From positions 1 through 36,362 of IMG/VR virus record IMGVR_UViG_3300044910_000043: a stretch of DNA of 36,362 nt. One strand, written 5' to 3'. The notes below the pieces were generated by a model that was given only the letters and a program-made list of their open reading frames with translations, did no database searches and was not told the origin of the DNA. Both the position numbers and the translations under genes were made by a program. Below are positions 1 through 36,362 of this stretch, one piece after another; position 1 is the stretch's first letter; every line of letters begins with the position of its first letter. Source of the stretch: a virus.

Positions 1-55
1 AACGCTCACGGTATTTCCGTGGCGTTCGTGCCTGCTGAGGGGATTGCACCCTCAC
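1..55 (-). CDS. Likely 5' part of the transglycosylase-like gene across the circular junction
   Basis: Read on the minus strand, bases 55-1 form an open frame (GTG 55 or GTG 49) that enters position 36362 without a break and in the frame of the transglycosylase-like gene. It would start about 26 bases after the amidoligase stop, fitting one operon. This depends on the molecule being circular or circularly permuted. Confidence 0.5.
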   Translation of the reverse strand, partial: MRVQSPQQARTPRKYRER

Positions 56-81: not shown

Positions 82-873
82 CTATCTATTAAGACCCTCT
101 GCGCGATTCTTGAGCCAATCGCCAGTGGAGGCGTTTAAACTGCCTAGACCTACCAAGGCATCCAGCAATATGTGGCACTCATTAACGCTGCGATAGATTC
201 CACGCTCATGGCTCCAAGGGCTGAGTCCAGTCATGTCTAGGGCGTTTAAACCCTTGTTAGCGGTTGCATCTATGAAGGCGCTGATGAATTGGCTCCATGC
301 GATTGCTTTTACACCGTTCAAGGTGCCTTGGTGCAGGCGTGCCTCCACGGTGCCATGGCGGTGCATAGATTCTAGGTTGAGGCTGACATAGCGATTACCG
401 TTCCATGCGCCTCTGCTGCCATTGCTGCTATAACTTGCCTGCTCCGTGGCATGTGCCTCGCCTAGAACTTTGCAGTAGCGATTGTTTAAACGGGATGGTG
501 CAACTAGCGCTGCAATCGCGTGATGCGCTGCATACCAATTCAAAACTAGATTGGCGAGATTGGTTGCAGGCGTGCGGTTAGATTCAGGTGTTGCCAAGGA
601 TTGGATTCCAATGTGGACATGGAAGCCAGTGGCACGGTCAACCCGTGCGCCATCTGCTTTGAGCGCTTTGGTTACTTTATGCGCCTCATTTAGGCGAAAA
701 ATGGTAAGTATTGGCGAGATGACCTCTGCGCCATTTTGCACGCTGCCATCATATTTTGATGACCAAGTGCCATCGCCTGCATCGCAATCAATGCCTGCCC
801 TGTTTAAACAATTTGATGCCATTTGAGGGCTTAAGCCTTGGATTTCAAACTCCATGCCAAAAGTGATGCTCAT
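82..873 (-). CDS. Amidoligase (glutamine synthetase-like COOH-NH2 ligase)
   Basis: 263 aa. The sequence shows the signature of the Amidoligase_2 family: G6-M-E8-F-E10 at the N-terminus, Y41-D42-G-S followed by E50-V-I-S-P54, G83-F-H85-V-H87, and N166 with E177-A-R179 and G183-T-L-N. Family knowledge: these glutamine-synthetase-fold enzymes use ATP to form amide bonds between a carboxyl and an amine, and are predicted to modify peptides or cell-wall components. The substrate here is unknown. Its AAGGAGG ribosome site overlaps the end of the upstream zinc-ribbon gene, two bases away, so the pair is an operon. Four GTTTAAAC palindromes (133, 244, 484, 802) lie inside, all read as x-Leu-Asn. If the window is circular, the next gene downstream is the transglycosylase-like gene. 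Confidence 0.85.
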   Translation of the reverse strand: MSITFGMEFEIQGLSPQMASNCLNRAGIDCDAGDGTWSSKYDGSVQNGAEVISPILTIFRLNEAHKVTKALKADGARVDRATGFHVHIGIQSLATPESNRTPATNLANLVLNWYAAHHAIAALVAPSRLNNRYCKVLGEAHATEQASYSSNGSRGAWNGNRYVSLNLESMHRHGTVEARLHQGTLNGVKAIAWSQFISAFIDATANKGLNALDMTGLSPWSHERGIYRSVNECHILLDALVGLGSLNASTGDWLKNRAEGLNR

Positions 874-875
874 GA

Positions 876-1049
876 TTATTTAACCTCCTTCATGGCTTGA
901 TTGCATGCAGGGCAGATTGGACTGCCATAGGTGATAAGTGTTGAGCGGGAGATTCTTGCAATGTAACCGTCTACCTCGCAAAGAACTTTGCGTAGACGGG
1001 TGGTTTGCTTTGGTTTTGCAACCTCTGCAACCGTGATGCCTTGAGTCAT
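876..1049 (-). CDS. Small zinc-ribbon-like protein
   Basis: 57 aa, starting at the ATG at 1049, which has GGAGG seven bases upstream; a longer reading to 1169 lacks such a site. The C-terminal half resembles a minimal zinc ribbon of a type common in actinophages: a knuckle at C24 and a CxxC at C46/C49. The usual second cysteine of the first knuckle appears as D27, so metal binding may be altered. It is the first gene of the minus-strand operon and stops two bases before the amidoligase start. Function is unknown. It could be a regulator, a partner or even a peptide substrate of the amidoligase; that is inference. Confidence 0.7.
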   Translation of the reverse strand: MTQGITVAEVAKPKQTTRLRKVLCEVDGYIARISRSTLITYGSPICPACNQAMKEVK

Positions 1050-1108
1050 TTTCTTGCCTCCAGTCTGTGAGTGGCGCGGTGCCACGGGCTGATTGTTGCA
1101 TCTTTGGC

Positions 1109-1543
1109 GTTTAAACTCAAGCATCTCAAAAGTCATTATTTGACGCTGCTTTTTGAGGGGTTTAAACACTTTGATTATCTGCCATGGATTGAGATGGGCT
1201 GCATGTTTAAACTATGGGCTGTAAGTTACCAGCGAGTAACCATGAGCAAAGCATTATTTTACGCTATGTTTTTGCATCTTAAGATATTGGGCATGTGAGA
1301 TGGCTTGCTATTTTAACTGCTTTTTTGAGGTTACTCATTGGTAACTTATGAGCCTCTGCCTGCCCTTTGCGATTGATGCAGTGCAGGCGGAACGGGTGCA
1401 GAGCCTGCAAAGTTTAAACACGGGGCGCGGGGCGATGTGTGCAGAGCGGGGGCGCTATCAATGCAGAGTAAGCGCCTCCACCCGCGCCAGTGCTGCTAGT
1501 GGGAGCGCGAGCAGTGCAGCATTGCAGCGTGCAGGGTTTAAAC
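1109..1543. repeat. Cluster of five GTTTAAAC palindromes
   Basis: Exact copies at 1109-1116, 1160-1167, 1205-1212, 1412-1419 and 1536-1543, all non-coding. Three read GTTTAAACAC, but flanks otherwise vary. They are part of a 30-copy set in the window; the other copies start at 133, 244, 484, 802, 9207, 9888, 12477, 17868, 19365, 20270, 27637, 28594, 32116, 32426, 32823, 33151, 33531, 34201, 34461, 34934, 35011, 35309, 35384, 35472 and 36213. Confidence 0.9.
1222..1348. repeat. Long inverted repeat (20-bp arms)
   Basis: The arm at 1222-1241 (TAAGTTACCAGCGAGTAACC) is repeated in inverse orientation at 1329-1348 with two mismatches, 87 bases apart. Each arm itself carries two related AGTTACC/AGTAACC words. 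Such paired sites in a divergent control region resemble operator or initiator-binding sites; this is inference. Confidence 0.7.
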
Positions 1544-5849: not shown

Positions 5850-6281
5850 GTGGCAAAAGAAGCAAAAAATAATTTCCAAGTATCTGGCACAGGCGGTGCT
5901 GGAACTAGCGGACAACCTGCGCGATATGCAGCAGGTATAGACAATGCGGAAGATTTTTATGAAATGCAAACTGCCGCAAAAATGCAAGGTCAAAATCCTG
6001 CATTTTCAAATGTGCCATCCCCATCCAGCCAACGCCCATTTAGAGGCGATAGCGCTCAAAAACTTGTGCCATTAAATGCTCCAACCCAAAGACCAGACGA
6101 AGATGTACGCACTGGTGGAAGTATGAATACAGAAGCCATGTATGCCAATGATGCTACAGCCACAGGAGAAGATGCTGACCGCATGCGTGCAGCGCTTCCA
6201 TATCTATCAATAATGGCAGAACTTCCACAAACTTCTAATGCTTTCCGAAACTATGTTAGGTATTTAAAAAGCGTACTATGA
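5850..6281 (+). CDS. Hypothetical virion-block protein
   Basis: 143 aa from GTG 5850, preceded at four bases by GGAGG; an earlier in-frame GTG at 5838 lies before that site. It is rich in Ala, Asn, Gln and Pro, probably disordered in the first 90 residues, with a short helical C-terminus (from about 110). It lies between the small basic gene and the giant virion gene and overlaps the latter by ATGA. Unknown function; a head-completion or ejection-accessory protein is possible from position alone. Confidence 0.75.
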   Translation: MAKEAKNNFQVSGTGGAGTSGQPARYAAGIDNAEDFYEMQTAAKMQGQNPAFSNVPSPSSQRPFRGDSAQKLVPLNAPTQRPDEDVRTGGSMNTEAMYANDATATGEDADRMRAALPYLSIMAELPQTSNAFRNYVRYLKSVL

Positions 6282-9200
6282 GTTTTAGCGAAACGCTTGG
6301 TAATGCAGCCAAGAAACTATCAGGAAATGGATTTGCCAACGAGATTGGCTTACCAACTTTATTGTTTGACCTTGCTACTGTTTCGTCAAACGATAAAAAC
6401 TGGGTTTCTGATGCGTTTAACATAGCAGGAGATACATTTCGCTCTACAGTTTTAGCAGCATCTTATCCAATTCGCAAACCAGTAGGGTTTGCTTTCAATA
6501 AAGTTTTAATGCCAACAGCAATGCTTTCTTATGAAACTGGTGGTAGATACCTTCGTGAGCCATTATCTGCAGCAGTAACAGCCCTTGCTACTGGCGATGC
6601 AAAAAAGTCATGGGAAAACCGTGACCAAATTTCTCCAGGTCAAGCAATCTCATATTTAACAGCAAAATTAACTCCAGGCACAGAATCTTTCCGTGGCGAT
6701 TTTGATATTTTTAATGCAAAAGACCGTGAGATATTCCAAACTGATTGGGCAGCACGCACACTCAGTGGTTCTATTGACACATTTTTTACCACAGTAACAG
6801 ACCCACTTGGCAAGTTTGCTAAAGGCGTTGGTCTTGCTCGTAAAGCATTAGTAACTCGCCCTATGGGAGCGCGTGATGCAAACGCTGCAACCCTTGCAAA
6901 AGATTTCTTTATGCCTCGCACTCTCCGCAATGTGCAAATTATGTCACCAGTAGCATTAGCCCGAACAATAAATGAAGGGCGCGAAGAAGGCGGAGAGATT
7001 TACAACACGCTTTCATGGATGGCTAAGAGTGACCAAACTGTAATTCGCCAACATCCACTGGTTCAAGCATCTAACGATGCAGACACTTTATCTTACTTGC
7101 TAGGTCAATCAGATACTGTAGATGATGTAGCAGATGTGCTTACAGCCACAGCGCTGGGAGATACAGAGGCTATGGCTCGCCTTGTTGCAAAGCGTAAAGA
7201 ACTAGCATTTGTTTTTGATAAAACAAAAGATGTATCTAAAGTTGACATGATGATTCTTGACGGAGTTCCTACCAATGGAATCGTAGATGATATTAATGTT
7301 CTTGATGCAGCCAGTGATTATGTTGCAAATCTTGACAACAATTCATATTTCCAAGCGTTAAATAAATTACATGTAAATGGCAATGCTTTAACTAAGCGTA
7401 CATTTGGTAAGCCAGCCTTTGAAAAGATGGCTATGAACCGCGCCGAGCGCCGTGCTGCTAAAGTCAAAGGTGTTGACTTAAACGAGCCAAGTAAGTTTCC
7501 AACCGTTGGATATTTCCAACCAACTAAGTATCACCCTCTTGTAGCAGTAGTAAATTTTGGTATGAAGAAAGTTGGCGATTCTTTCCAAGAAACTCCATCA
7601 GGTTATATCAATCTTAACGACTCTGATTCATATAATGAATTAACAGCATTTGGAACTTTATTACGCCGTATTGTTGGAGATGAAGCAAATCCTGTAGTTG
7701 AACGCCATCTTAATGATTACATACAATCTGGTGGAGTTCCAGAACTTCGCGCTCGCGTTGTTGAATCATTTGAAGATTTATCTATATCTTTAATTAATCA
7801 AAAACTTGGAATCAGCGATGAGGCTGGTCAAGTTATCTGGAGTCAATATAAGGCTCGCCGCGAAACTGCGCGACAGATGATTAAAGACCGTAAGTTCTTA
7901 ATGACTGGCGATGATGTAATTCTTAAGATTCCATACCTAGAGCGCCAAGGCGCTAACGCGCTACCTATGGTAGACCTCGCTAACTATTCTCGTGTTATTG
8001 AAAAGAATAAAGGCGTGCTTAATACCTTAAATCGCGCATCTGAAATTACTGACCCAGATTCTTGGCGATACACCACTGGTGTTCTTAATGACCTTTGGAA
8101 AGCCTCTGTCCTTCTTCGTCTTGGTTATACTGTTCGTAACCTAAGTGAAGCAAGTTTATCTATTCTTGCTAAGGGCTATGGACTTATGGCACTTAGTGAT
8201 ATTAACCGAGAAGGATTTAAAGGTTGGTACACAAATCGTGTTCGTGATATTGACCGCTTAACAGACCGCAGACTTGTAGCACAAGGATTGCGTGAGGATT
8301 CTGTAGCGTTGCGTAGCGAATTTGCAGATAAACAATCTTTGCTTATTGCATCTGAGCGAGCGCTTCAAGATTTTGATGTATTCCTAGAGTCCATTGAGCG
8401 TTTATACCGCATGGGTAGACTTACCGATGAACAGTATAAAGAAGCCATTGATGTATTCCAATACGCAACTGGTGAGTATTTATACCATGGTTCACCAGCG
8501 CCAATTAGCGCTTTAGATAATACACGCCCTATGGCGATGAACTTTACCGAGGACATGGCAGAGCGCTATGCAACCTCGGCTATGCCAGTAATCAGTGCAT
8601 CTGAAATTTACAAGCGTACTTCTGGTCGTGCTTATCCAATGCCAAAAAATTTACGCACCCGTGAAGGCAAACCTATTACCCCAAGGCGTAAACCGTCTTT
8701 GGCTATGCAAACAGTTGCTGCAGATATGCGTGATGGTTTTATTAATAGCGTTAACAATGGCAACGAAATACAAATTCTTAATCCTTCAACAGGGCGCTGG
8801 ACATCTATTGACCCAAATACAGTTTCACAAGAATTATTAACCACTGGACAGTTCCGTATTCGCAAGCCTGGTAGAGAAGGCGTAACTATTGGTCAAAAGG
8901 TATACGGCAAAACTGTAGATTTGCGCTCAATGCAGCAATACTCAGGACAAGCCAGAACTCGTCAAGTTCTTGACTTGGCTGATTATCCAGAACTTCAAAC
9001 AATTCTTGGTATTTCTAAAGGTACAATTCGCAATCGTGATGCTTGGCAAGGTAAAGAGCCAGAACTGCTTAACTGGATGCGTGCTAATGGCATAGGTAAA
9101 CTTGTATTACCTGATGTAAAAAGTCGCGGTGGTTCTACGGTGCTTGTTGACCCTGACCTAGTGGATGGATTTGGCAATAGACCAACTGTAGCCTTGGCTG

Positions 9201-12200
9201 AACAGCGTTTAAACGCAGCAAAAAATGCACAACAACTGCTTTCAGACGAAGGCAGAATCTTGCAGATTATTGAGCGTACTGTTCAAAATCAAGGCGGAAC
9301 ATTTAAATTCTCTGATATGGTTACTGGTGATGTACCTACGCAAGGTGTCGCAGTTGCTATCCGTGGGGCAACGCACGCGTTCCCACTGGAACAAGCCCGT
9401 ACTAACCCAGAGAATTGGGTTGCTTCTGTTGCAGACCACTTTGAGGCTAATTTTGATAAGTTTGGCAGTGCAGACCATTTTGGTACTTGGATTGACGATA
9501 TTGATGGTGTTCCTCATATTAAGTCCGACCCCGTAAATGTAATTGCAAATCGTGCAGAAGCCATTAGACTAGGAACAACACGCAATCAGCAAGGAGTATT
9601 TGACCTTGGTGAACTTGAATATATCGGAACGAAAGGCACAGGAGATGTCGGAGCAAGCGAAAGGTTTGCACTGGGTAAAGGCACCAAAGCCGTTAGACCA
9701 GATGAACCCACAGGAACGCCGAGCGTTCGCAGAATTGCTGGCTCGGAGAATTTTGGAAAGCGCGTTAATGAAATCTCAGAGTCCATCGCCAGTGGAAGAT
9801 ACCCAACCGAAGGCATAGTTTCACTTGTTCGTGAAATAGCAGATGGACAAGCAACAACTCGTAGAGATTTACAAGCACTTCTAAGTCGTTTAAACGCACG
9901 AGTCGTAGAAGAAGAACGCCTTGCAGCGCCAAAGGTTATTCAAGGAACTGGTCGTAGAACAGAAAAACTCTATGATGGTACAACTGTTGAATTTGATGAT
10001 GCTTACCGTGGTGAGCCTGGACAGATTCTATTAGATAGAACTGACAACACAGAATCTTATCGCAGATTTGTAGACCATCCAGCACGGATGTTTGCAGCAG
10101 AACATGGCAACTATGTAGAAAATGTTTTATCTCCAAATATGCCTGATTATTACTCAGGATATGCAAATCAATTAAACACTTTCTTTCGTAGTCCAGATGG
10201 GCGTATTGACCCACTAATTGAGCAGATGCTCAATGACACACGCCCAGAAGAAATTGTGGCTTGGTTGCGTGCTCCAGAAAATGCTGCCTATGCTCGTAAG
10301 TTTAATATTGATGTGCCAGGAAATAGAGTGGCATCAGAGCGGTTAAATGTATCTATTGATGCAGAAGATTTTGTTGGCGATTTATACAGTGCTTACAATC
10401 GTTATCTGCCAGATAGCCAAACCCAAGAAGCCTTCCGTAATGGTGAAATTACTGAGTCTTGGCTACGGAATCATTTTGCCGATAATACAGAGATGCCAGA
10501 TATTATTGGGCGCATAGTTCCAACTAGCCCACAGGCTCGTAACTGGCAAGATGGCTTGGCTAAGGTTATTGATAGAGCGTTTTATTTCTTAGGCTCATTA
10601 CCTGAAACTACCTTTGCCCGTCACCCGTTGGCTCGCCAAGTTTATCGTTCAGAAATGAAACAACGCCTTGATGTTGCCCTAGCAACTAAGCGTATGAACA
10701 TTGGTGATGATGCTCAGTTAACAACTGATGATATTAATAAGGTTCGCCGTGAGGCTGTTGAGTCAACTCGCAAAGAAGTAAATAAGACTCTATTTACGAT
10801 TATTCGTAAGTCTTATGCTGGCGAAAAAATGCGCCTTGTCATGCCGTTCTTTAACGCATGGGAAAACACTATTCGCCGTTGGTCTGGTCTTGCAACAGAG
10901 AATCCTGCGGTTATCGCTCGTGCTGGACAAATTGTGTCTACACTGCGTAATCAGCCAAATGTGGTTGATAGAGATGGCAACCCAACTACTGAGTTTTCTT
11001 ATGAAAACAAAATAGTACTGCCTATGCCTTCAAGTTTTATTAAAGGTGTAGAGAAGATTCCTGGATATGGCAAAGGCATGGCAGAAGCCTTGCGCTCATC
11101 AGGCACACAAGTTTCTATTCCAGTGCGAAGTCTTGACATCATTATGCAAGGTGAAATATTGGCAGGCTTTGGTCCTCTTGTAATAATTCCAGTTAATGAA
11201 ATTGTTAAATTAAAGCCTGACCTAGAGGATATTGTAACAAAAAGTATGCTTCCAATATTACCTTTTGGTCCACAAGAAGGAACTATTCGCAATCTATTTC
11301 CACCAGCAATGCAAAAACTTGCATCATTGGGCGGTCAAGATGAAGCGTGGAGTCGTACATTTAATACAGTTTATCGTTACGAACTAATCCGTTTTAACTT
11401 AGGCGAGCGTGATACCATGCCTGAATTAAGCGAAGTAAAGAATCTAGCAGATAGTTTATACAGAGTTAAGATTCTTTCTAATCTAGTTATGCCATTTGCT
11501 GCACAGTATGATTCACCATTAAGTTTTTATACACAACAATTCCGTAGAATACAGCAGGTCTATGGCGCAGATGCAGAAACTTTATTTTTACAGATGTACC
11601 CAGAAATGGGTCCAGCCCTTGTATCTAGTTCTTACAACCCTACTGGTGCGCAGGCTTCGCAGGCTGCTTTCCAAAATATCAAAAGGTACAAAGGCTTAAT
11701 CAGCAAGATTGGTCAAACAACACCTGAAATGATTGGCTTCTTAGTCAATGACCCAGATGGTAAGTATGACTTCTCTGAGGCTGTATATGCTTGGCAGTAT
11801 AGAAACACTCCAGTTCCTGGCTCTATTGAAAAATATCGTGAGCGTAGAAACCCTGCAGAACTTAAGAAAGATGCCAATATAAAAGTTGGCTGGGTTGAGT
11901 TCCGTAAAAAAATGACAGGTTTAGATTACCAACTTGATGCTCAAGGTTATGAGTCTTATCAGGAATCTGGCGCTGAGGAATTACTTGCCCTTAAGCAAAT
12001 GATGATTGCAGACCTAACCCGCCGTAATCAAGATTGGGCTGCTGATTATTACAATGTAGATAGAGGTAAGTGGATTTATCGTATGCAGTCTATTAAGACA
12101 ATGCTTACTGACCCACAGTGGATGCAAGAAAATGGTCGCAGACAAGTAACTAGGGATTTGGCTGTTTATCTAAATACTCGCACCCAAATTGCTCGTGAGT

Positions 12201-12364
12201 TATCAAACCGCAGGGCATACGGTGGAGCATCTACTCTTACCGCAAAAGACAATGCTGATTTAGATGCCTACTGGAATAGCACAGTAGCGCAACTTAAGAA
12301 ATCTCCAGAGTTTAATGACTTCTATAATCGCTTTTTACAAAATGACCCTGTGACACTTGGATAA
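6278..12364 (+). CDS. Giant internal virion / ejection protein with possible ADP-ribosyltransferase-like domain
   Basis: 2028 aa, the largest gene, filling a sixth of the window. It starts at an ATGA overlap with the previous gene. Its size and its position between portal and scaffold fit the large internal proteins that short-tailed phages eject into the cell (compare T7 gp16 by role only). Around residue 736 the motif Y-H-G-S is followed at 756-765 by FTEDMAERYA, resembling the N-terminal signature of ADP-ribosyltransferase-type domains in large polyvalent phage proteins. Residues about 1020-1115 form another compact domain ending in a Gly-rich TKGTGDVG stretch. Around 1510-1530, VMPFFNAWENTIRRW is a motif I associate with such large proteins. 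Two GTTTAAAC words (9207, 9888) fall in it. There is no signal peptide. The enzymatic domain is a hypothesis. Confidence 0.75.
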   Translation: MSFSETLGNAAKKLSGNGFANEIGLPTLLFDLATVSSNDKNWVSDAFNIAGDTFRSTVLAASYPIRKPVGFAFNKVLMPTAMLSYETGGRYLREPLSAAVTALATGDAKKSWENRDQISPGQAISYLTAKLTPGTESFRGDFDIFNAKDREIFQTDWAARTLSGSIDTFFTTVTDPLGKFAKGVGLARKALVTRPMGARDANAATLAKDFFMPRTLRNVQIMSPVALARTINEGREEGGEIYNTLSWMAKSDQTVIRQHPLVQASNDADTLSYLLGQSDTVDDVADVLTATALGDTEAMARLVAKRKELAFVFDKTKDVSKVDMMILDGVPTNGIVDDINVLDAASDYVANLDNNSYFQALNKLHVNGNALTKRTFGKPAFEKMAMNRAERRAAKVKGVDLNEPSKFPTVGYFQPTKYHPLVAVVNFGMKKVGDSFQETPSGYINLNDSDSYNELTAFGTLLRRIVGDEANPVVERHLNDYIQSGGVPELRARVVESFEDLSISLINQKLGISDEAGQVIWSQYKARRETARQMIKDRKFLMTGDDVILKIPYLERQGANALPMVDLANYSRVIEKNKGVLNTLNRASEITDPDSWRYTTGVLNDLWKASVLLRLGYTVRNLSEASLSILAKGYGLMALSDINREGFKGWYTNRVRDIDRLTDRRLVAQGLREDSVALRSEFADKQSLLIASERALQDFDVFLESIERLYRMGRLTDEQYKEAIDVFQYATGEYLYHGSPAPISALDNTRPMAMNFTEDMAERYATSAMPVISASEIYKRTSGRAYPMPKNLRTREGKPITPRRKPSLAMQTVAADMRDGFINSVNNGNEIQILNPSTGRWTSIDPNTVSQELLTTGQFRIRKPGREGVTIGQKVYGKTVDLRSMQQYSGQARTRQVLDLADYPELQTILGISKGTIRNRDAWQGKEPELLNWMRANGIGKLVLPDVKSRGGSTVLVDPDLVDGFGNRPTVALAEQRLNAAKNAQQLLSDEGRILQIIERTVQNQGGTFKFSDMVTGDVPTQGVAVAIRGATHAFPLEQARTNPENWVASVADHFEANFDKFGSADHFGTWIDDIDGVPHIKSDPVNVIANRAEAIRLGTTRNQQGVFDLGELEYIGTKGTGDVGASERFALGKGTKAVRPDEPTGTPSVRRIAGSENFGKRVNEISESIASGRYPTEGIVSLVREIADGQATTRRDLQALLSRLNARVVEEERLAAPKVIQGTGRRTEKLYDGTTVEFDDAYRGEPGQILLDRTDNTESYRRFVDHPARMFAAEHGNYVENVLSPNMPDYYSGYANQLNTFFRSPDGRIDPLIEQMLNDTRPEEIVAWLRAPENAAYARKFNIDVPGNRVASERLNVSIDAEDFVGDLYSAYNRYLPDSQTQEAFRNGEITESWLRNHFADNTEMPDIIGRIVPTSPQARNWQDGLAKVIDRAFYFLGSLPETTFARHPLARQVYRSEMKQRLDVALATKRMNIGDDAQLTTDDINKVRREAVESTRKEVNKTLFTIIRKSYAGEKMRLVMPFFNAWENTIRRWSGLATENPAVIARAGQIVSTLRNQPNVVDRDGNPTTEFSYENKIVLPMPSSFIKGVEKIPGYGKGMAEALRSSGTQVSIPVRSLDIIMQGEILAGFGPLVIIPVNEIVKLKPDLEDIVTKSMLPILPFGPQEGTIRNLFPPAMQKLASLGGQDEAWSRTFNTVYRYELIRFNLGERDTMPELSEVKNLADSLYRVKILSNLVMPFAAQYDSPLSFYTQQFRRIQQVYGADAETLFLQMYPEMGPALVSSSYNPTGAQASQAAFQNIKRYKGLISKIGQTTPEMIGFLVNDPDGKYDFSEAVYAWQYRNTPVPGSIEKYRERRNPAELKKDANIKVGWVEFRKKMTGLDYQLDAQGYESYQESGAEELLALKQMMIADLTRRNQDWAADYYNVDRGKWIYRMQSIKTMLTDPQWMQENGRRQVTRDLAVYLNTRTQIARELSNRRAYGGASTLTAKDNADLDAYWNSTVAQLKKSPEFNDFYNRFLQNDPVTLG
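9645..9818 (+). CDS. Possible out-of-frame overlapping small gene
   Basis: 57 aa in the +1 frame inside the giant gene. It reads like a real small helical protein: a charged core around P18-x-x-Q-M-N-P-Q-E-R-R-A-F-A-E-L-L-A-R-R, then a Pro/Ser-rich tail. The start ATG has AAAGG about seven bases upstream. The stretch is somewhat GC-richer than its neighbours. It may instead be chance, or the remnant of an inserted gene absorbed into the larger frame. Confidence 0.25.
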   Translation: MSEQAKGLHWVKAPKPLDQMNPQERRAFAELLARRILESALMKSQSPSPVEDTQPKA

Positions 12365-20342: not shown

Positions 20343-22331
20343 ATGGCAGCAGGCGACCCAGGCTCCCCAGCGCGGTACTACTCATCAACCGCAGTAGAAA
20401 CTTCGCTCCAATCATCCATCCCCGCACAATCTCAGGGACAATCAAACACATCCTTTATTGTTGCATCGGTTAGCGGTTTTCCATCATCGTTGCCATACAC
20501 ACTTATTGTTGACCCCGATACATCTAAAGAAGAAGTTGTCACAGTAACTGCCGCTTCCAGCACAACCCTTACTGTAACTCGTGGTGCTGACAATACGCAG
20601 GCTGTTGCCCACTCTGCTGGTGCAGTGGTACGACATGGTGTATCTGGTCGTGACTTCCGTGAATCACAGAATCACATATCTGCTCGTGGCTATGACATTG
20701 ATGAAACAATCCTTACTGCTGCTAATCAAACACATGTTCACGGTATTGCTACTGGTGATGGTGTTATTGTAGGTACTACCAAGGCTCAGACTCTTACTAA
20801 TAAAGTTTACTCAAGCGGTACTGTAACTGGTGCATTTACTGCAACCAGCGCAACATTTACTGGCGGTACATTTACTTCAGCCACAGTAACAAGTTCAACA
20901 GTGACCTCATCTACAATTGTATCAAGCACGCTAACTGGTTCTTTTACAGCATCTGCTGCTACTTTTGTAAGCCCAACTATCTCTGGCTCACCAGTCATTA
21001 CTGGTCTATCCAGTGTTGGTATGGTTAACTCATCTGCTGTTCCAAAGATTTATGTAGATACTATTTTTGAAGATGCAACACAGGCTGCAATCTCTGCAGC
21101 ATCTGCTGCAGCCAGTGCAACTGCTGCTGCTACAAGTGCCACATCTGCAGCAAACAGCGCTACAGCATCTGCTAATAGCGCCAGCGCAGCAGCAACCAGT
21201 GCAACCTCTGCTGCAACAAGCGCAACTAACGCATCTAATTCTGCTACTGCTGCTACTACCAGCGCCACAAGCGCTGCTGCAAGCGCCACTGCTGCAGCCA
21301 CAAGCGCTACCAGTGCAGCCAACTCAGCAACAGCATCTGCTTCTTCAGCAAGCGCTGCAGCGACTAGCGCAACTAGCGCTGCTGCAAGCGTTACGGCTGC
21401 TGCTACCTCGGCTACCTCGGCTGCTGCGAGTGCAACTGCTGCTGCTACAAGTGCAACGAGCGCTGCGACATCTGCAGGCAGTTCAGAAACATCTGCAATT
21501 TCATCTGCAACTAGTGCTACGGCTGCTGCTACTTCAGCAACCTCTGCTGCTGCTTCAGCCACGGCTGCTGCTACCAGCGCCACAAGCGCAGCAGCATCTG
21601 CAACTGCAGCAGCCACTTCTGCAGCATCTGCTGCAGCCTCAACTTCTGCTGCTGCTGCTTCTGCTTCTGCTGCAGCAACTAGCGCTGCATCAGCAGCCAC
21701 ATCAGCAACCAGCGCTGCTGCTTCTTATGATTCCTTTGATGATAGATACCTTGGTGCTAAGTCAACGCCACCTACTTTAGATAATGATGGTCAAGCACTT
21801 CTTACTGGAGCCCTTTACTGGAACACAGTTGATAATCAGATGTATGTTTGGAGTGGTAGCGCTTGGGGTGGTATCTCATCTACTGCATCAATCTTCCGTT
21901 TTAGATTTACCGCAGCAGGCGGAGAAACATCTGAGTCAGGCGTAGATGACAATGGCAATACTCTTTCCTACCTAACAGGTAAGGAGCAGGTATACCTAAA
22001 CGGTGTATTGCTAGTTCGTGCTCAGGACTACACAGCAACTAACGGCACAAGCATTGACTCTTTAAGCCCTGCTCTAGCAGCCAGCGATGTGCTGGAGATT
22101 ATTACCTTTACAGCATTTGATGTTGCTACTGCAATTCCTAATAGCATCCTTGATGCAAAGGGAGATTTAATTGTAGCCAGTAGCGCAGATACTCCTGGCA
22201 AATTAACAGCAGGTACTAACGGCTACTTCTTAAAGGCTAACTCTGGTGCAGCACTTGGACTAGAGTGGGCTGAAGTACCAGCAACAGATACAACATCCAT
22301 TGAAGTAATGTCTATAATGGGAGCATACTAA
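20343..22331 (+). CDS. Tail fibre protein with long Ala-rich heptad repeat
   Basis: 662 aa. Domains in order: a beta module (about 25-100) with RGADNTQAVAHSAG; Thr/Ser/Val beta repeats (about 145-235); a repeat stem (about 244-461) of roughly 31 heptads with consensus S-A-T-x-A-A-x; a DSFDDRYLGAKSTPP linker common in phage fibres; a W/Y-rich LYWNTVDNQMYVWSGSAWG segment; a strand-rich VYLNGVLLVRAQDYTA domain like T7-type fibres; and a C-terminal DAKGDLIVASSADTPGKL module. The stem is expected to form a trimeric rod and the C-terminus to attach further fibre proteins. It ends with TAATG shared with the next gene. Confidence 0.85.
   Translation: MAAGDPGSPARYYSSTAVETSLQSSIPAQSQGQSNTSFIVASVSGFPSSLPYTLIVDPDTSKEEVVTVTAASSTTLTVTRGADNTQAVAHSAGAVVRHGVSGRDFRESQNHISARGYDIDETILTAANQTHVHGIATGDGVIVGTTKAQTLTNKVYSSGTVTGAFTATSATFTGGTFTSATVTSSTVTSSTIVSSTLTGSFTASAATFVSPTISGSPVITGLSSVGMVNSSAVPKIYVDTIFEDATQAAISAASAAASATAAATSATSAANSATASANSASAAATSATSAATSATNASNSATAATTSATSAAASATAAATSATSAANSATASASSASAAATSATSAAASVTAAATSATSAAASATAAATSATSAATSAGSSETSAISSATSATAAATSATSAAASATAAATSATSAAASATAAATSAASAAASTSAAAASASAAATSAASAATSATSAAASYDSFDDRYLGAKSTPPTLDNDGQALLTGALYWNTVDNQMYVWSGSAWGGISSTASIFRFRFTAAGGETSESGVDDNGNTLSYLTGKEQVYLNGVLLVRAQDYTATNGTSIDSLSPALAASDVLEIITFTAFDVATAIPNSILDAKGDLIVASSADTPGKLTAGTNGYFLKANSGAALGLEWAEVPATDTTSIEVMSIMGAY
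21075..21725 (+). repeat. Degenerate 21-bp coding repeat (Ala/Ser/Thr heptads)
   Basis: About 31 tandem 21-base units encode S-A-T-x-A-A-x heptads of the tail fibre stem. Synonymous Ala, Ser and Thr codons are mixed from unit to unit, so the DNA is far less repetitive than the protein, which should reduce slippage and deletion. Confidence 0.8.
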
Positions 22332-31386: not shown

Positions 31387-31642
31387 ACTCCCAAACTTTG
31401 TGGAATTTGTTGATGAAACGACAAATAAAATCTTCAACCCTTCCGCCATCTGGTTTGAGTCAATCCAGTTTGCTGACTATGTGGCGCAACTTGCTACTCA
31501 TCTCAGGGAAGAACACGGAGGAGAGTGCCGAGAAGAAATCGCAGGAAAGTTAATTATTATGTCGGAGAACTTTAAAGAGTTAGCCGAACACGCAATGAAA
31601 ATTTTAGACAATTCAGAAAAGAGTATGAAACATGGCGCATAG
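31226..31642 (+). CDS. Hypothetical helical protein
   Basis: 138 aa if started at ATG 31226, which has GGAG five bases upstream but gives a 161-base overlap with the previous gene. ATG 31280 or 31322 would shorten the overlap but have weaker sites. The body is acidic and alpha-helical (VTPKMVEEAILQAKLPEVI onward), without enzyme motifs. Overlaps the glycosyltransferase gene by 11 bases. Confidence 0.6.
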   Translation: MFGRRKKQGGSKNSPKNNMKHFSVEELSVTPKMVEEAILQAKLPEVIKEALINELPNFVEFVDETTNKIFNPSAIWFESIQFADYVAQLATHLREEHGGECREEIAGKLIIMSENFKELAEHAMKILDNSEKSMKHGA

Positions 31643-32378
31643 TAATAAAGAAATGCTTTCCATTATTTGGTGCGACAATGGCACTACCGATGGCAAGTTT
31701 ACTGAGGGCTTGGTTTATACACTGATACATGCAGCATCCGTTGGTGTGCCAGTTAACAATGCTGTTCGTGTTCAAGGTAATCAGATTGCCCGACAAAGAC
31801 AAGCAGCCATTGAGATGTGGCAGCAGGTCAATACCGATTGGGCGCTGTGGGTTGATTCAGATATTGTCTTAACCAAAGAGATGTTAAAGAGTCTATGGGA
31901 TGCTGCTGACAAGGTAGCCCGACCTATAGTAAGTGGTGTTTATTTCATCTCTAAGCAGATGGAAGGCTCACTCATGCAGCCTATGCCTTGTGTCTTTAAT
32001 GAAACTGGCAATGAGTATGAGATTAGTTATCTTCATCCTCTACCTAAGAATCAGATAGTAAAGGTTGATAATGCAGGCATGGGTTTAGTGCTGATGCATA
32101 AGAGCGTACTCAAGGGTTTAAACGATAAGTTCCCTGACCAGTTTTGGTTTGGCGAGAACAACGAACGAGGAGAGAAATTTATCGGTGAAGATATTTCTTT
32201 CTTCCGAAAGGTAAAGGCTGCAGGCATACCTGTTCATGCCCATACTGGTGTACTTGCTAAACACATGAAACGATTTGCTTTTGATGAAGCCTATTACAAC
32301 CTGTATTGGACAGCAGCAGCAGAAGCAGTAGAGAGGAGAGAACGCGATGCCAAGTCAGCAAGTAGCCAACAAGCGTAG
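31632..32378 (+). CDS. Glycosyltransferase, GT-A fold (putative)
   Basis: 248 aa. A D-x-D metal and nucleotide-sugar motif occurs in WALWVDSDIVLT (about 70-81), preceded by an RQRQAAIEMW helix and followed by ARPIVSGVYF and a late GEDISFFRKVKAAGI (about 200), the usual plan of family 2-type GT-A transferases. It sits inside the replication block, not by the fibres, so a target on DNA bases or a host surface polymer are both possible. No membrane segment. GTTTAAAC at 32116. Confidence 0.75.
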   Translation: MAHSNKEMLSIIWCDNGTTDGKFTEGLVYTLIHAASVGVPVNNAVRVQGNQIARQRQAAIEMWQQVNTDWALWVDSDIVLTKEMLKSLWDAADKVARPIVSGVYFISKQMEGSLMQPMPCVFNETGNEYEISYLHPLPKNQIVKVDNAGMGLVLMHKSVLKGLNDKFPDQFWFGENNERGEKFIGEDISFFRKVKAAGIPVHAHTGVLAKHMKRFAFDEAYYNLYWTAAAEAVERRERDAKSASSQQA

Positions 32379-32712
32379 AGGTGCTGCATGGGAAATAGAC
32401 CTTGCTGATTTCTTTATGCAACAAGGTTTAAACGCACAGCGTTTACCTCGTGCTGGTCGTAATGACATTGGCGATGTGTTTGTTCCTGGAGTCAATGGTA
32501 TCTATGTAGTGGAAGCCAAGGCTCCACGGCGGGATGGTCGCATTGATTTGAGTGGTTGGATTCGTGAGTCTGAGATTGAGGCAGAGAATTACCGTATTGC
32601 AAAGCGATTGACAGTTGCGCCTACACCATTGGTGATTATCAAGGCAAGCAACAAAGGGACAGGTGAAGCCTATGTCGTTCAGAAACTCAGTGATGTCCTC
32701 TCCAACCTCTAA
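32347..32712 (+). CDS. Holliday-junction resolvase-like PD-(D/E)XK nuclease
   Basis: 121 aa with a GAGGAGAG site. Motifs: KRRGAAWEIDLADFF (Glu near 15), G-D near 41-42 in NDIGDVFVPG, and E-A-K at about 56-58 in VVEAKAPRR, the E...D...ExK core of Hjc/VRR-type nucleases. Probably resolves branched DNA during replication and packaging. It overlaps both neighbours. GTTTAAAC at 32426 encodes G-L-N. Confidence 0.8.
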   Translation: MPSQQVANKRRGAAWEIDLADFFMQQGLNAQRLPRAGRNDIGDVFVPGVNGIYVVEAKAPRRDGRIDLSGWIRESEIEAENYRIAKRLTVAPTPLVIIKASNKGTGEAYVVQKLSDVLSNL

Positions 32713-33070
32713 ACACAGCATAGTTAAAGTACTTGAGCATTACGGATTTGTAATTCCTCAGAATCGTGGAGGGTGGCAATCAATTCGTTGCGCTTTTCAC
32801 AATGACCATGTGAAGTCGGCTCGTTTAAACATAGACAATGGTGGCTTCAGATGTTTTGCCTGCGACATGGCAGGAGATGTGTATTCATTAATCATGAAAA
32901 AAGAAGGAGTGGATTATGGCAAGGCTCTCAAAATCGCAGAGAGAATTACTGGCGAAAGCAACGGAGAACTACGCAACAAGCCTAGGAGAAGCGTTGCCTT
33001 ACCTAATGAATCGCGGTATAACGGAGCAAACGGCGCGTATGTTCCGCCTCGGATTCGTGGCGAATCCTGA
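32672..33070 (+). CDS. DNA primase, zinc-binding domain (split primase part 1)
   Basis: 132 aa from ATG 32672 (AGGTGA upstream). A CHC2-type zinc finger is visible at C40-x-x-H43 and C61-x-x-C64, followed by MAGDVYSLIMKKEG, typical of DnaG N-termini that recognise the template. The gene ends with a basic, Gly/Asn/Pro-rich tail (YVPPRIRGES). The last 155 bases also encode the start of the Toprim protein in another frame. GTTTAAAC at 32823. Confidence 0.85.
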   Translation: MSFRNSVMSSPTSKHSIVKVLEHYGFVIPQNRGGWQSIRCAFHNDHVKSARLNIDNGGFRCFACDMAGDVYSLIMKKEGVDYGKALKIAERITGESNGELRNKPRRSVALPNESRYNGANGAYVPPRIRGES

Positions 33071-33536
33071 AGCAGGACATGAACCTTACCTCGGTAAGTT
33101 GGCTATCCCATACCTCACTCCATCGGGTGTGATTGATATTCGTTTCCGTAGTTTAAACAACGATAGCGGTCCGAAGTATCTATCAAGACCTGGAGCAAGC
33201 ACACACATTTACAATGTTGATGCGCTTAGTAGTGATACAGATTTTCTTGTGATATGCGAGGGTGAATTAGACACCATCATCGCTACACAAGTTGGCTTCT
33301 CAGCAGTGGGATTGCCTGGGGCTAACAACTGGAAACCATTTTACTCTCGTGTTCTTGCAGACTGGGAAAAGATTATGTTGTTTTGTGATGGTGATAACGC
33401 AGGTAAAGAGATGGCAAAGACCCTCTCAAGAGAATTGGACAATGTATTCCCCGTGTTCATGCCTGATAACTGCGATGTTAACGATGTGTTCCTTACCGAA
33501 GGAGCAGAGGGACTACGAAAGCGAGTGGGTGTTTAA
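32916..33536 (+). CDS. DNA primase, Toprim catalytic domain (split primase part 2)
   Basis: 206 aa. ATG 32916 has a good AAGGAG six bases upstream, inside the zinc-finger gene. Toprim motifs: the Glu in VICEGELDT (about 111-116) and D-G-D in LFCDGDNAGKEMA (about 156-165), with SAVGLPGANNWK between. The N-terminus (LPYLMNRGITEQTARMF, then LAIPYLTPSGVIDIRFR) matches the DnaG catalytic-core lead-in. With part 1 it reconstitutes a primase that lacks the helicase-binding C-terminus. It ends GTT-TAA within GTTTAAAC 33531. Confidence 0.88.
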   Translation: MARLSKSQRELLAKATENYATSLGEALPYLMNRGITEQTARMFRLGFVANPEAGHEPYLGKLAIPYLTPSGVIDIRFRSLNNDSGPKYLSRPGASTHIYNVDALSSDTDFLVICEGELDTIIATQVGFSAVGLPGANNWKPFYSRVLADWEKIMLFCDGDNAGKEMAKTLSRELDNVFPVFMPDNCDVNDVFLTEGAEGLRKRVGV

Positions 33537-33540
33537 ACAA

Positions 33541-34029
33541 GTGATTGTTAAACTGAGTCAAGAAGAAGTGCGGGTGTGTACCACACTGGCAGTAGAGCGT
33601 TGGCTCACCAAGTTTGGTTCCATTGATAGACCCAACTATGCAGCAGGTAAGAAGTTTGGAAAGTTAGAGCCTGAGATTCTTGCGAATATCAGAGCCAATG
33701 TTGCTGAGTGGGCAGTGGCTAGAGAATACAACTTGTCATGGTCAGTGCCTTGGTATCCCAATGAACTGCACTCTAGGCGCAAGAACATACCTGATGTGGG
33801 TGAGTTTGAAGTTAGAACCGTAAGGACTCAAAGTGCAATTCCTTTTTGGAAGAAGGATGTAGGCAGAACAATCTTCGGCGTTAAGATTTTAGATGAGGAG
33901 TATTATTCCATAGTTGAAATCTTTGGTTCATTTAAGGCTGATGATTTTATGATAGATGAATACGCCGATGCCTCAATAGATGGCTGGCGCGTACCTATTG
34001 AATTGATTACAGGTGGCATTGATGGATAG
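33541..34029 (+). CDS. Hypothetical phage protein (possible nuclease-like fold)
   Basis: 162 aa from GTG 33541 (M-I-V-K-L-S start, as in similar proteins); GTG 33529 is an alternative. Motifs NVAEWAVAREYNL and IPDVGEFEVRT loosely recall PD-(D/E)XK enzymes, but the expected Lys is Arg, so activity is doubtful. Translation probably couples to the primase stop. Overlaps the sigma-like gene by eight bases. Confidence 0.6.
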   Translation: MIVKLSQEEVRVCTTLAVERWLTKFGSIDRPNYAAGKKFGKLEPEILANIRANVAEWAVAREYNLSWSVPWYPNELHSRRKNIPDVGEFEVRTVRTQSAIPFWKKDVGRTIFGVKILDEEYYSIVEIFGSFKADDFMIDEYADASIDGWRVPIELITGGIDG

Positions 34030-34702
34030 CCAAGACAAAGTTTGGGAAACTATTTATGGTGTGGCTAGGCAGGTTGCAACCCGTGCTAATCGCATACACC
34101 GTGGACTTGTAACTGCTGATGATTTATACCAGCACCTTTCATTGTGGGCATTAGAACACTGGCACAAGATAGAACAATGGAGTGCAGAGGAAAGTCTAAA
34201 GTTTAAACTGCGTAAGACTTTCTATAATGAAGCACAGAAGTATGTAGCCAAAGAGCGCTCGCATCTATCTCGCGCACCAATCAATGATAGTTTTTACTAC
34301 ACACATGAGGTGTTGCATGAACTATTGCGTGATGTATGGACACACCAAGGCTGGACAGATACTCCTGATATGAGCAATGAGTACATAAGTCGTAGCACTA
34401 AGCCATCCGAAGGTGGCAATCGCATTGCACTTTTGTCAGATATTGCTGCAGGCTTGGACCGTTTAAACAAGACAGACAAAGACTTACTTCGTATGCGCTA
34501 TGCCAATGGCGGTATGGAGTTTGGTGCCCTTGGTGAAACTTATGGAACTACTGAGGAAGCCATGCGTAAGCGTGTTAAACGGGCACTGAATAAGTTGCAA
34601 GACAGATTAGGTGGAGAGGCACCAGTGTGGCGTGGGCGCAGGCGCGTTCGCTCCAATGCTGAATCAAGAGCGATGATTAGAAATCAGGAGGAGCAAGAGT
34701 GA
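34022..34702 (+). CDS. Sigma-70-like RNA polymerase factor
   Basis: 226 aa from ATG 34022 (AGGTGG five bases upstream). A region 2-like segment (TADDLYQHLSLWALEHW, about 35-51) and a clear region 4 helix-turn-helix (LLRMRYANGGMEFGALGETYGTTEEAMRKRVKRALNKL split over about 152-195) flank a linker, as in ECF-size sigma factors. The tail is Arg-rich. It likely redirects host polymerase to phage promoters. Two GTTTAAAC words lie inside (34201, 34461). It ends in GTGA shared with the next gene. Confidence 0.8.
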   Translation: MDSQDKVWETIYGVARQVATRANRIHRGLVTADDLYQHLSLWALEHWHKIEQWSAEESLKFKLRKTFYNEAQKYVAKERSHLSRAPINDSFYYTHEVLHELLRDVWTHQGWTDTPDMSNEYISRSTKPSEGGNRIALLSDIAAGLDRLNKTDKDLLRMRYANGGMEFGALGETYGTTEEAMRKRVKRALNKLQDRLGGEAPVWRGRRRVRSNAESRAMIRNQEEQE

Positions 34703-34863
34703 TTTACCTTTGGTATTGGTACAACCGTTTGAAGTGTTTGTTTGGCTTTCACTTTTGGATTGGCACACTAGCAGGCGATAATTTTGACGACCCAGTTGAT
34801 TACTATTGGTGTATGAACTGTCATAAAGAGCAGAAGGAAAGTCCATATAAGGAGGATAAATGA
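34699..34863 (+). CDS. Small aromatic protein with CxxC
   Basis: 54 aa from GTG 34699, with GGAGGAG upstream and overlaps at both ends. Hydrophobic, Trp/Tyr/Phe-rich N-terminal half (IYLWYWYNRLKCLFGFHFW), then an acidic part and C38-M-N-C41-H near the C-terminus, which might bind metal. Function unknown; possibly a membrane-associated small protein. Confidence 0.65.
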   Translation: MIYLWYWYNRLKCLFGFHFWIGTLAGDNFDDPVDYYWCMNCHKEQKESPYKEDK

Positions 34864-35396
34864 TTATCGGATTGAGCGGGTACGCTCGCAGTGGTAAGGA
34901 TACAGTTGCAGAACTACTGGTACTTAACTATGGGTTTAAACGCATAGCGTTTGCTGATGGTATTCGTGAAGCATTACTTGCATTGAATCCTATTCTTCAT
35001 GATGGTATGCGTTTAAACGAGGTAGTACAAATGTATGGTTGGGATGTTGCCAAGTCTAAAGATGAGGTGCGCCGTTTGCTTCAAGTTATGGGTACCGAAG
35101 TTGGTCGCAAGTTAATTCATGAAGATGTTTGGGTGTGGCGTTTGTTGAATCAGGTTGCCACTGGTGAGCGCATTGTTATACCCGATGTTCGCTTCCCTAA
35201 CGAAGCACGCATGATTGAGAATCAAGATGGGGAAGTGTGGCGTATAAACAGACACAACCATGGCGCAGTCAATGACCATATCAGTGAACGCGCTTTGGAT
35301 AACCACATGTTTAAACGAGTCCTCTATAACGATGGAACTCTTGATGATTTATCTGATGAAGTATTCATGCTAATGCACAATGTGTTTAAACTATGA
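34860..35396 (+). CDS. Deoxynucleoside monophosphate kinase
   Basis: 178 aa. P-loop G4-L-S-G-Y-A-R-S-G-K13-D-T15, then KRIAFADGIREAL, and RIVIPDVRFPNEA (about 105-117), the pattern of phage dNMP kinases (T4 gp1-like) that supply dNDPs for DNA synthesis. The AAGGAGG site is followed by an ATGA overlap with the previous gene. Four GTTTAAAC copies (34934, 35011, 35309, 35384) lie in this one gene, read as F-K or L-N. Confidence 0.88.
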   Translation: MIIGLSGYARSGKDTVAELLVLNYGFKRIAFADGIREALLALNPILHDGMRLNEVVQMYGWDVAKSKDEVRRLLQVMGTEVGRKLIHEDVWVWRLLNQVATGERIVIPDVRFPNEARMIENQDGEVWRINRHNHGAVNDHISERALDNHMFKRVLYNDGTLDDLSDEVFMLMHNVFKL

Positions 35397-35533
35397 GCGA
35401 CCCACAGATAGATAAGTTTGTTAGCAAGATTGAAGATGCAAAGATACCTGAGAAAGATGAGTGGTGTAAAGGTTTAAACGCTGGACTTGATTGGGCTATT
35501 CGTATTATTACTGGCGATAAATCTGCTTCATAA
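35393..35533 (+). CDS. Small hypothetical protein
   Basis: 46 aa, ATGA-coupled to the kinase gene with no strong ribosome site of its own. Acidic/basic mixed N-terminus and an amphipathic C-terminal helix (LDWAIRIITGDKSA). GTTTAAAC at 35472 encodes G-L-N. Last gene before the terminator. Function unknown. Confidence 0.6.
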   Translation: MSDPQIDKFVSKIEDAKIPEKDEWCKGLNAGLDWAIRIITGDKSAS

Positions 35534-35538
35534 ATAAA

Positions 35539-35577
35539 CAAGCACCGCCTTCGGGACTGGTACCTAAGCGGTGCTTG
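35539..35577. terminator. Bidirectional terminator between converging blocks
   Basis: A perfect 10-bp stem, CAAGCACCGC (35539-35548) with GCGGTGCTTG (35568-35577), separated by 19 bases. On the minus strand it is followed by a T-rich TTTATTTAT stretch, so it should end the WhiB operon; it probably also ends the plus-strand replication block. Confidence 0.85.
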
Positions 35578-35592
35578 CTGTTCTAGTTTAAC

Positions 35593-35952
35593 TTAATTTC
35601 CTCTGTCTTTCAACTGCGGGTCAATCAATGCCCAACCTCTCCTTCTGCGTTCTTTATCACGCATCACTGGGGTCATGCCACCCCATATACCGTAGCGTTC
35701 GTGGGCTAATCCCCACTCGGCACATGCCTCAATGACTGGACAACCACCACAGATTCGCTCTCGTATGTAGCGCTCCTGTTCAGGGGTAAACTTATCCGTT
35801 AGAGGATAAAAGTTTTCCGTTGGTACGCCAGCACACTTGGCACCTTTAAAGTTGTTTGGATTGTACACAAGTGTGTAGTACCTACGCCCACGCGTTTCTA
35901 CTGCGTTGCGTATCTTATGAAATTTTGGTCGTATTTGAATAACCTGTCGCAT
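35593..35952 (-). CDS. whiB: WhiB-family transcription regulator
   Basis: 119 aa from ATG 35952, with GGAG seven bases upstream. Four cysteines (C40, C68, C71, C77) in the C...CxxC...C arrangement bind a [4Fe-4S] cluster; the GIWGG turn is at 88-92 and a basic DNA-binding tail at 100-106 (KERRRRG). Family knowledge: WhiB proteins occur only in Actinobacteria and their phages and act on sigma-factor-bound RNA polymerase; phage versions can reprogramme or down-regulate host genes. Last gene of the minus-strand operon, before a terminator. It may work with the phage sigma-like factor. Confidence 0.92.
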   Translation of the reverse strand: MRQVIQIRPKFHKIRNAVETRGRRYYTLVYNPNNFKGAKCAGVPTENFYPLTDKFTPEQERYIRERICGGCPVIEACAEWGLAHERYGIWGGMTPVMRDKERRRRGWALIDPQLKDRGN

Positions 35953-36100
35953 TTAGATACTCCATAACTGAGGCAACCAGTATGTCAACGCGTACTGGTC
36001 TAGTGATAATTGGGTCAGTGGCTATCTCTGCGTTGAAGGTAAGCCCACTGAGTATGAGATGCTTTTGTAATCCTTGTAATAGTTCTTGGTATTCTTGCAT
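35915..36100 (-). CDS. Small hypothetical protein
   Basis: 61 aa from ATG 36100, which shares TAATG with the transglycosylase-like stop and overlaps the WhiB start by 38 bases; the longer reading to 36109 lies inside the upstream gene. Mostly helical with hydrophobic residues (MQEYQELLQGLQKHLILSG; ILVASVMEYLNATG). No recognised domain. Packing shows it belongs to the WhiB operon. Confidence 0.6.
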   Translation of the reverse strand: MQEYQELLQGLQKHLILSGLTFNAEIATDPIITRPVRVDILVASVMEYLNATGYSNTTKIS

Positions 36101-36362
36101 TAGTACCAACCCCTTGAGATGTTGCTACCTAGTGCCTTGCAGATATTTCCGCCATACTTGCGCTGAATATATGCAAGTCCTGCCTCCACTTGAACGAAGC
36201 CATTGTCGGTGCGTTTAAACCCCACAAGTTTCCATGTTGATGGCATGAACTGGGCAATTCCGTATGCTCCACTCTCACGATTTAATGCTCGTGGATTCCA
36301 GTTTGATTCTCGCATCCATAGTGTGTAAAGACATGACCATTGCTCAAGTTTGCCCATCTGTG
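36100..36362 (-). CDS. Transglycosylase-like (lysozyme-fold) protein, 5' end at or beyond the window edge
   Basis: The 85-aa part starting at the ATG at 36357 contains a lysozyme-like core: W13-M-R-E17-S-N-W with E17 as the likely catalytic acid, S29-G-A-Y-G-I-A-Q36 and AGLAYIQRKYG (about 59-69), as in SLT/Rpf-like peptidoglycan-cleaving domains of actinophages. The frame is open through the window edge and, if the ends are joined, continues through bases 1-55 (GTG at 49 or 55), giving about 103-105 aa with an in-family PRKYRERSQ lead-in. No signal peptide. TAATG-coupled to the next small gene. Acts on the host cell wall or has a non-lytic wall role. Confidence 0.75.
   Translation of the reverse strand, partial: QMGKLEQWSCLYTLWMRESNWNPRALNRESGAYGIAQFMPSTWKLVGFKRTDNGFVQVEAGLAYIQRKYGGNICKALGSNISRGWY

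Follow-up and report, generated by a model that had tools for sequence, protein, structure and literature searches.

An Amidoligase_2 gene with a conserved amidotransferase partner, and an array of the palindrome GTTTAAAC, in a probable lake actinophage

Amidoligases in described phages

Genes of the Amidoligase_2 family occur together with a class II glutamine amidotransferase (GAT-II) in several described phages. Arthrobacter phages Salgado and Ottawa, like Alcaligenes phage QDWS535, have the two genes side by side. An amidoligase is annotated, and the pair reported, in the LUZ24-like phage UFV-P2 (PMC3890496), and both enzymes are reported for OM43 phages (PMC10580990). In LUZ24, the amidotransferase follows the unnamed gp18 in the equivalent cluster, which also carries a RimK-domain gene. 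The LUZ24-like and phiEco32-type amide-ligase clusters, as predicted by Iyer et al. (2009), share Amidoligase_2 and GAT-II with the locus described below; their additional COOH-NH2 ligase of type 2, ATP-grasp enzyme and UPF0131-domain gene were not found here.

Ammonia supply by GAT-II is not universal, since in Bacillus and Geobacillus phages a gamma-glutamyl cyclotransferase stands beside the amidoligase instead of the amidotransferase, and in a Porphyromonas phage with Amidoligase_2 neither partner is annotated. MurT-GatD, which performs wall amidation, consists of a Mur-ligase-type synthetase and a class I amidotransferase, whereas the locus considered here combines a glutamine-synthetase-like synthetase with a class II enzyme and falls outside that type.

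This locus belongs to a virus contig of 36,362 nucleotides (IMG/VR record IMGVR_UViG_3300044910_000043), hereafter the window. Its nearest terminase relatives in the phage collection are those of Streptomyces phages (~50%). Phages E7 and F5, isolated on 'Ca. Planktophila', have genomes of 39.1 and 38.9 kb (PMC10202952). The Planktophila phages LanE43AprE7/F5 and the G2 actinophages resemble the virus studied here in WhiB, a sigma-70 factor, a glycosyltransferase and a size of ~39 kb, a likeness taken from the text of PMC10202952 and not from sequences; that text mentions neither an amidotransferase nor the 8-bp palindrome GTTTAAAC discussed below. Because of the WhiB, sigma factor, glycosyltransferase and 39-kb size shared with E7/F5, the hosts are considered to be lake actinobacteria, probably 'Ca. 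Nanopelagicales'.

The amidoligase locus and its neighbours

The genes discussed lie close to the two ends of the window:

82..873, (-) strand: Amidoligase_2 (glutamine-synthetase-like carboxylate-amine ligase), 263 aa; Pfam, PHROG, fold model, relatives, dN/dS
876..1049, (-) strand: solo zinc ribbon, 57 aa; PHROG 6361, alignment with SprT-like C-terminus, 39/39 relatives
1..2, no strand: contig end; gap to base 36362 of 3183 bp, which in relatives holds the class II glutamine amidotransferase, DUF7249, DUF3846 and small ORFs
36100..36362, (-) strand: SLT transglycosylase, truncated; Pfam SLT, full-length orthologue at 9875-10309 of relative L002
35915..36109, (-) strand: 64-aa ORF between transglycosylase and WhiB; tblastn, conserved in many relatives
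35593..35952, (-) strand: WhiB-like transcription factor, 119 aa; Pfam Whib, E 1.4e-12
34860-35396: dNMP kinase
31632-32378: glycosyltransferase

The product of ORF 82-873 (-) matches Pfam PF12224 (Amidoligase_2) with 72.5 bits (E 6.5e-20; curated cut-off 22 bits) and PHROG 2443, 'amidoligase enzyme' (5.9e-25). Motifs FGMEFE, YDGSV..GAE..SP.L, TG(F/Y)HVH, RY.SLN and HGT.E.RLHQGT are conserved in an alignment of 18 members, and their residues ExE, E..SP, HVH, R...N and G..E.R.H.G are kept across eight diverse phages, including those of Arthrobacter, Bacillus, Porphyromonas and Geobacillus. An AlphaFold2 model built from relatives (pLDDT 85, pTM 0.85) gave, as best PDB folds in Foldseek, glutamine synthetase, YbdK, gamma-glutamylmethylamide synthetase (GmaS) and Dop/PafA, with a TM of only ~0.5; the amidoligase of phage Salgado is a viral fold match (query TM 0.75), and a PDB sequence search returned no close relative. 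There are 43 amidoligase relatives in IMG/VR (identity 53-99%), and pairwise dN/dS of 0.10-0.21 indicates purifying selection on the gene. The earlier note, made from the sequence alone, had described a glutamine-synthetase-like amidoligase with all key motifs in a freshwater actinophage and proposed an HMM search, structure prediction and comparison of the gene neighbourhood as checks; the Amidoligase_2 match, the glutamine-synthetase-like fold and the gene order kept among relatives all agree with this description.

The amidoligase fold is also matched by BFVD entry A0A2L1J0D3 of Mycobacterium phage Tesla, which is named a glutamine amidotransferase; either the name is wrong or the protein may combine both partners in one chain.

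The zinc-ribbon ORF, which the same note had recognized as a tiny gene before the amidoligase, lies 2 bp upstream of it and was found in 39/39 relatives with upstream sequence. It matches profile positions 155-201 of the 203 in PHROG 6361 and resembles the C-terminal ribbon of phage SprT-like proteins (e.g., L108 4689-5279), the protease domain being absent. Between the amidoligase operon and the divergently oriented terminase lie the following elements, recognized by sequence reading:

1222-1241 and 1329-1348, no strand: inverted elements TAAGTTACCA(GC/AT)GAGTAACC, two copies

These 20-bp elements (TAAGTTACCAGCGAGTAACC and TAAGTTACCAATGAGTAACC) are nearly identical, are also visible in L002, and could be operator-like, forming a pair of possible candidate operators. 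An Rfam search gave no match, and promoter and terminator scans stayed at chance level.

Continuity of the operon through the ends of the window was considered. The earlier note had placed the amidoligase, across the junction, before a wall hydrolase and WhiB. Mapping to L002, whose amidoligase is 98% identical to that of the window, places base 1 at L002 6863 and base 36362 at L002 10047, with 3183 bp between them. The contig breaks at 1..2 inside a GTTTAAAC site, and its other end truncates the SLT transglycosylase, of whose 144 residues the C-terminal 86 remain. A terminal repeat is absent from the window; one is present in the complete relative G006 (39,642 bp, end overlap), whose length is as expected if ~3.2 kb is missing from the window. 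In relatives, the missing segment holds at least six genes, the amidotransferase among them. The 3183-bp gap and the truncated transglycosylase led to the rejection of a circular operon through the window ends. By this mapping, the window is read as a linear, incomplete contig, although it may also be a circle with a real deletion of the segment. The direct adjacency to hydrolase and WhiB came from treating the two ends of a linear, incomplete contig as continuous, so that the claimed neighbourhood is partly an artefact.

The true conserved partner of the amidoligase is neither the wall gene nor WhiB but the class II glutamine amidotransferase. It lies downstream of the amidoligase, within its co-directional block, in 41/41 relatives long enough to include it (partial genes at contig ends counted; L009 and L037, whose contigs end too early, left out). 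The protein has ~278-294 aa, starts with MCGI (L002 copy at 7363-8247, 294 aa) and matches Pfam GATase_6 (1e-16); Cys2, Arg82, Asn108-Gly109 and Asp130 are shared without exception by 15 relatives and two Arthrobacter phages. Judging from relatives L002, L007 and L003, with amidoligases 96-98% identical, the genome of the window presumably carries this gene too.

In the clade, the terminase on the opposite strand is followed by the zinc ribbon, amidoligase, small ORFs, amidotransferase, small ORFs, DUF7249, DUF3846, transglycosylase, a small ORF and WhiB, and then, with a change of strand, by the dNMP kinase and sigma factor. About 0.35-1.3 kb with small ORFs separates the amidoligase from the amidotransferase, and in L002 the amidoligase is ~3.1 kb from the transglycosylase and ~3.7 kb from WhiB. 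The Arthrobacter phages (Salgado 98/99, Laroye, Ottawa 65/66) have the same two families in the same order, likewise in actinophages, with identities of 27-29% and 34-38%. In them the two genes are adjacent and the ligase is extended N-terminally, whereas here small ORFs intervene, no such extension is seen, and a solo zinc-ribbon gene lies ahead.

Two other proteins of the window deserve mention. A 2028-aa protein (6278-12364), encoded between the portal and capsid genes, has an unnamed PHROG (10618) as its sole strong match. A 662-aa protein (20343-22331) has 21-nt periodic Ala/Ser/Thr-rich repeats at 21070-21740 and is perhaps a tail-fibre stalk.

Possible reactions of the enzyme pair

The amidoligase is probably one of two components, the synthetase, of an amide synthetase that depends on glutamine and belongs to an actinophage likely to infect 'Ca. 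Nanopelagicales'. This reading is based on the family, fold and motifs, the conserved partner with its catalytic residues, and purifying selection. The amidotransferase of the same gene block would split glutamine by means of its N-terminal cysteine, freeing ammonia. The amidoligase would spend ATP to turn a carboxylate into an acyl phosphate, and the activated carboxylate would react with ammonia, or less likely with a small amine, so that a small molecule or peptide would acquire a carboxamide.

Wall amidation could be realized by the same two enzymes if they acted alongside the secreted transglycosylase and WhiB and amidated peptidoglycan-precursor carboxylates in the cytoplasm, altering lysin sensitivity or blocking superinfection. 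Class II amidotransferase domains are used for wall amidation in actinobacteria (LtsA), which speaks for this route. The transglycosylase and WhiB are co-directional and belong to the same block in every relative with enough sequence, and the N-terminus of the full-length transglycosylase has a hydrophobic, signal-like stretch. Among the inspected regions of other phages, cultured ones with the pair included, no wall gene or WhiB adjoins the amidoligase; the lysis genes of the Bacillus phage lie 2-4 kb upstream. The wall or superinfection role suggested for the phiEco32 amidoligase is repeated in PMC10580990 and PMC11318856 and traced to Iyer et al. (2009); it is a prediction, and no experiment was found in the literature. 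The neighbours in other phages, which are amidotransferase or cyclotransferase, support an amide synthetase and not a dedicated wall operon. Wall amidation by the pair is considered unlikely. The proposal of the earlier note, a wall-modifying system with hydrolase and WhiB serving, for example, superinfection exclusion, thus found no specific support; a wall role of the amidoligase is possible but unsupported.

Synthesis of a gamma-glutamyl amide or modified peptide directed against the host or competitors has somewhat more in its favour and is still doubtful. The fold neighbours YbdK and gamma-glutamylmethylamide synthetase form gamma-glutamyl bonds, the ligase of Bacillus and Geobacillus phages is accompanied by gamma-glutamyl cyclotransferase, and LUZ24 has its RimK-domain gene; however, a non-exhaustive search identified no precursor peptide or cyclotransferase in the clade, and the constant GAT-II partner argues for ammonia rather than an amine. 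Amidation of a modified base by the pair, with the nearby dNMP kinase and glycosyltransferase acting in the same path of DNA or nucleotide hypermodification, is very improbable: both genes are present, but dNMP kinases are common in phages and an entry enzyme modifying the base was not seen among the scanned genes.

The GTTTAAAC palindrome

Two described repeat systems are comparable with GTTTAAAC. Stoperators of Cluster A mycobacteriophages are likewise tens of copies of one short site genome-wide; these are 13-bp, asymmetric, oriented with transcription and located in promoters or short intergenic gaps (PMC9283540), whereas GTTTAAAC is its own reverse complement and often lies inside genes on either strand. 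HIP1 of cyanobacteria (GCGATCGC) is, like GTTTAAAC, a highly iterated 8-bp palindrome (PMC4390886), but it is a bacterial genome feature tied to orphan methyltransferases, whereas GTTTAAAC is a phage feature concentrated in non-structural genes. The literature search gave no earlier description of GTTTAAAC in phages, its matches being by title cloning-site or unrelated uses, which is weak evidence of absence.

The window contains 30 copies (133-36220) against 0.81 expected; the highest count among 100 shuffles was 3. Those around the operon and at the opposite end are:

133..1543, no strand: nine GTTTAAAC sites at 133, 244, 484, 802, 1109, 1160, 1205, 1412 and 1536, the first four inside the amidoligase gene
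32116..36220, no strand: thirteen further GTTTAAAC sites, spread across the region of the primase, sigma factor, dNMP kinase and transglycosylase

Six clade genomes, the window included, hold 213 copies against 6.0 expected, and each of the 43 relatives holds 6-34 (0.07-0.32 expected). Single-mismatch words are mostly unenriched in the clade, except for GTATAAAC (27 against 7.8). The flanks of the site in the six genomes favour a purine at +1 on both sides.

The distribution over genes is uneven. In eleven contigs, coding sequence holds 2.79 sites per kb in the early set and 0.16 per kb in the late set; these labels are ours and not expression-based, the late set comprising structural, endolysin-like, exonuclease and helicase genes. 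The exact GTTTAAAC is spelled by 93/125 [CRSG]-Leu-Asn triplets in early genes against 12/29 in late ones, and by 70/93 Phe-Lys pairs against 6/51, counts that pool related genomes and are not independent. Within the amidoligase, sites are gained or lost through synonymous change at fixed Leu-Asn positions. Such retention at the codon level in early genes points to a constraint on the DNA.

The minimum spacing of GTTTAAAC is 44 bp in G002, G003, G004, G006 and L002, with 35 spacings at 44-120 bp (uncorrected for relatedness); this minimum may reflect the size limit of a bound factor.

The palindrome is not restricted to the clade. When IMG/VR was scanned for stretches with three sites 20-50 bp apart, at least 120 were found for GTTTAAAC, against 30 and 36 for the control words CAAATTTG and CTTTAAAG; dense arrays made up 89 of the 118 GTTTAAAC loci among the matches listed, against 2/30 and 8/36 for the controls. 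The listed loci include clade members and contigs whose terminases are only ~22% alike. Five non-clade contigs (G045, G046, G048, G053 and G057) carry 219 copies against ~5 expected; unlike in the clade, near-miss words are enriched in them (GTGTAAAC, 98 against 8.9; ATTTAAAC, 54 against 10.6; CTTTAAAC, 44 against 10.7). WhiB was absent from all 14 non-clade contigs searched, several of which are fragments. In these unrelated WhiB-less contigs the sites are distributed more evenly, whereas in the clade they are concentrated in non-structural genes. One such contig has a terminase with 57% identity to the enzyme of a phage assigned to Gammaproteobacteria and 55% to the one of Pelagibacter phage HTVC027P; the examined parts of HTVC027P, DSL-LC04, 023Pt_psg01 and Pag-Yong1, relatives of this group, contain no arrays.

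A bacterial genome signal was considered as the source and rejected on the bacterial matches listed. These come from Firmicutes, Bacteroidota, cyanobacteria and others, with no actinobacterium among them, and many are regularly spaced and resemble CRISPR or tandem repeats (not checked singly). One beta-proteobacterial MAG has 89 copies of GTTTAAAC against 67 of the reversed word.

Among phage proteins, WhiB was rejected as the reader, since it was not found in the non-clade contigs searched. The zinc ribbon was also discarded as a binder: in the WhiB-less group it forms the C-terminal part of a SprT-like protease, a protein widespread among phages, so that its shared presence means little. No methyltransferase was seen among the scanned genes, and the scanned subset of ORFs showed no repressor or integrase.

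On balance, the operon stretch appears to be the core of a GTTTAAAC array maintained by selection on DNA, which would steer codon choice, and perhaps amino acids, in non-structural genes and would be shared with at least one unrelated, WhiB-less group. The palindrome would then be bound or recognised by a factor of the phage or host, as yet undescribed, whose role is to organise early-region expression, replication or protection.

The amidoligase is a further member of an already known phage enzyme pair, and the GTTTAAAC array is the more novel and more surprising feature. The known but uncharacterised pair now includes viruses whose hosts are probably the most abundant bacteria of lakes. Replacement of a false neighbour by the real partner makes the biochemistry testable with two proteins. 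If real, an 8-bp word at tens to more than 100 times expectation in two unrelated phage groups, inside genes as well, would imply a common, as yet unnamed reader.
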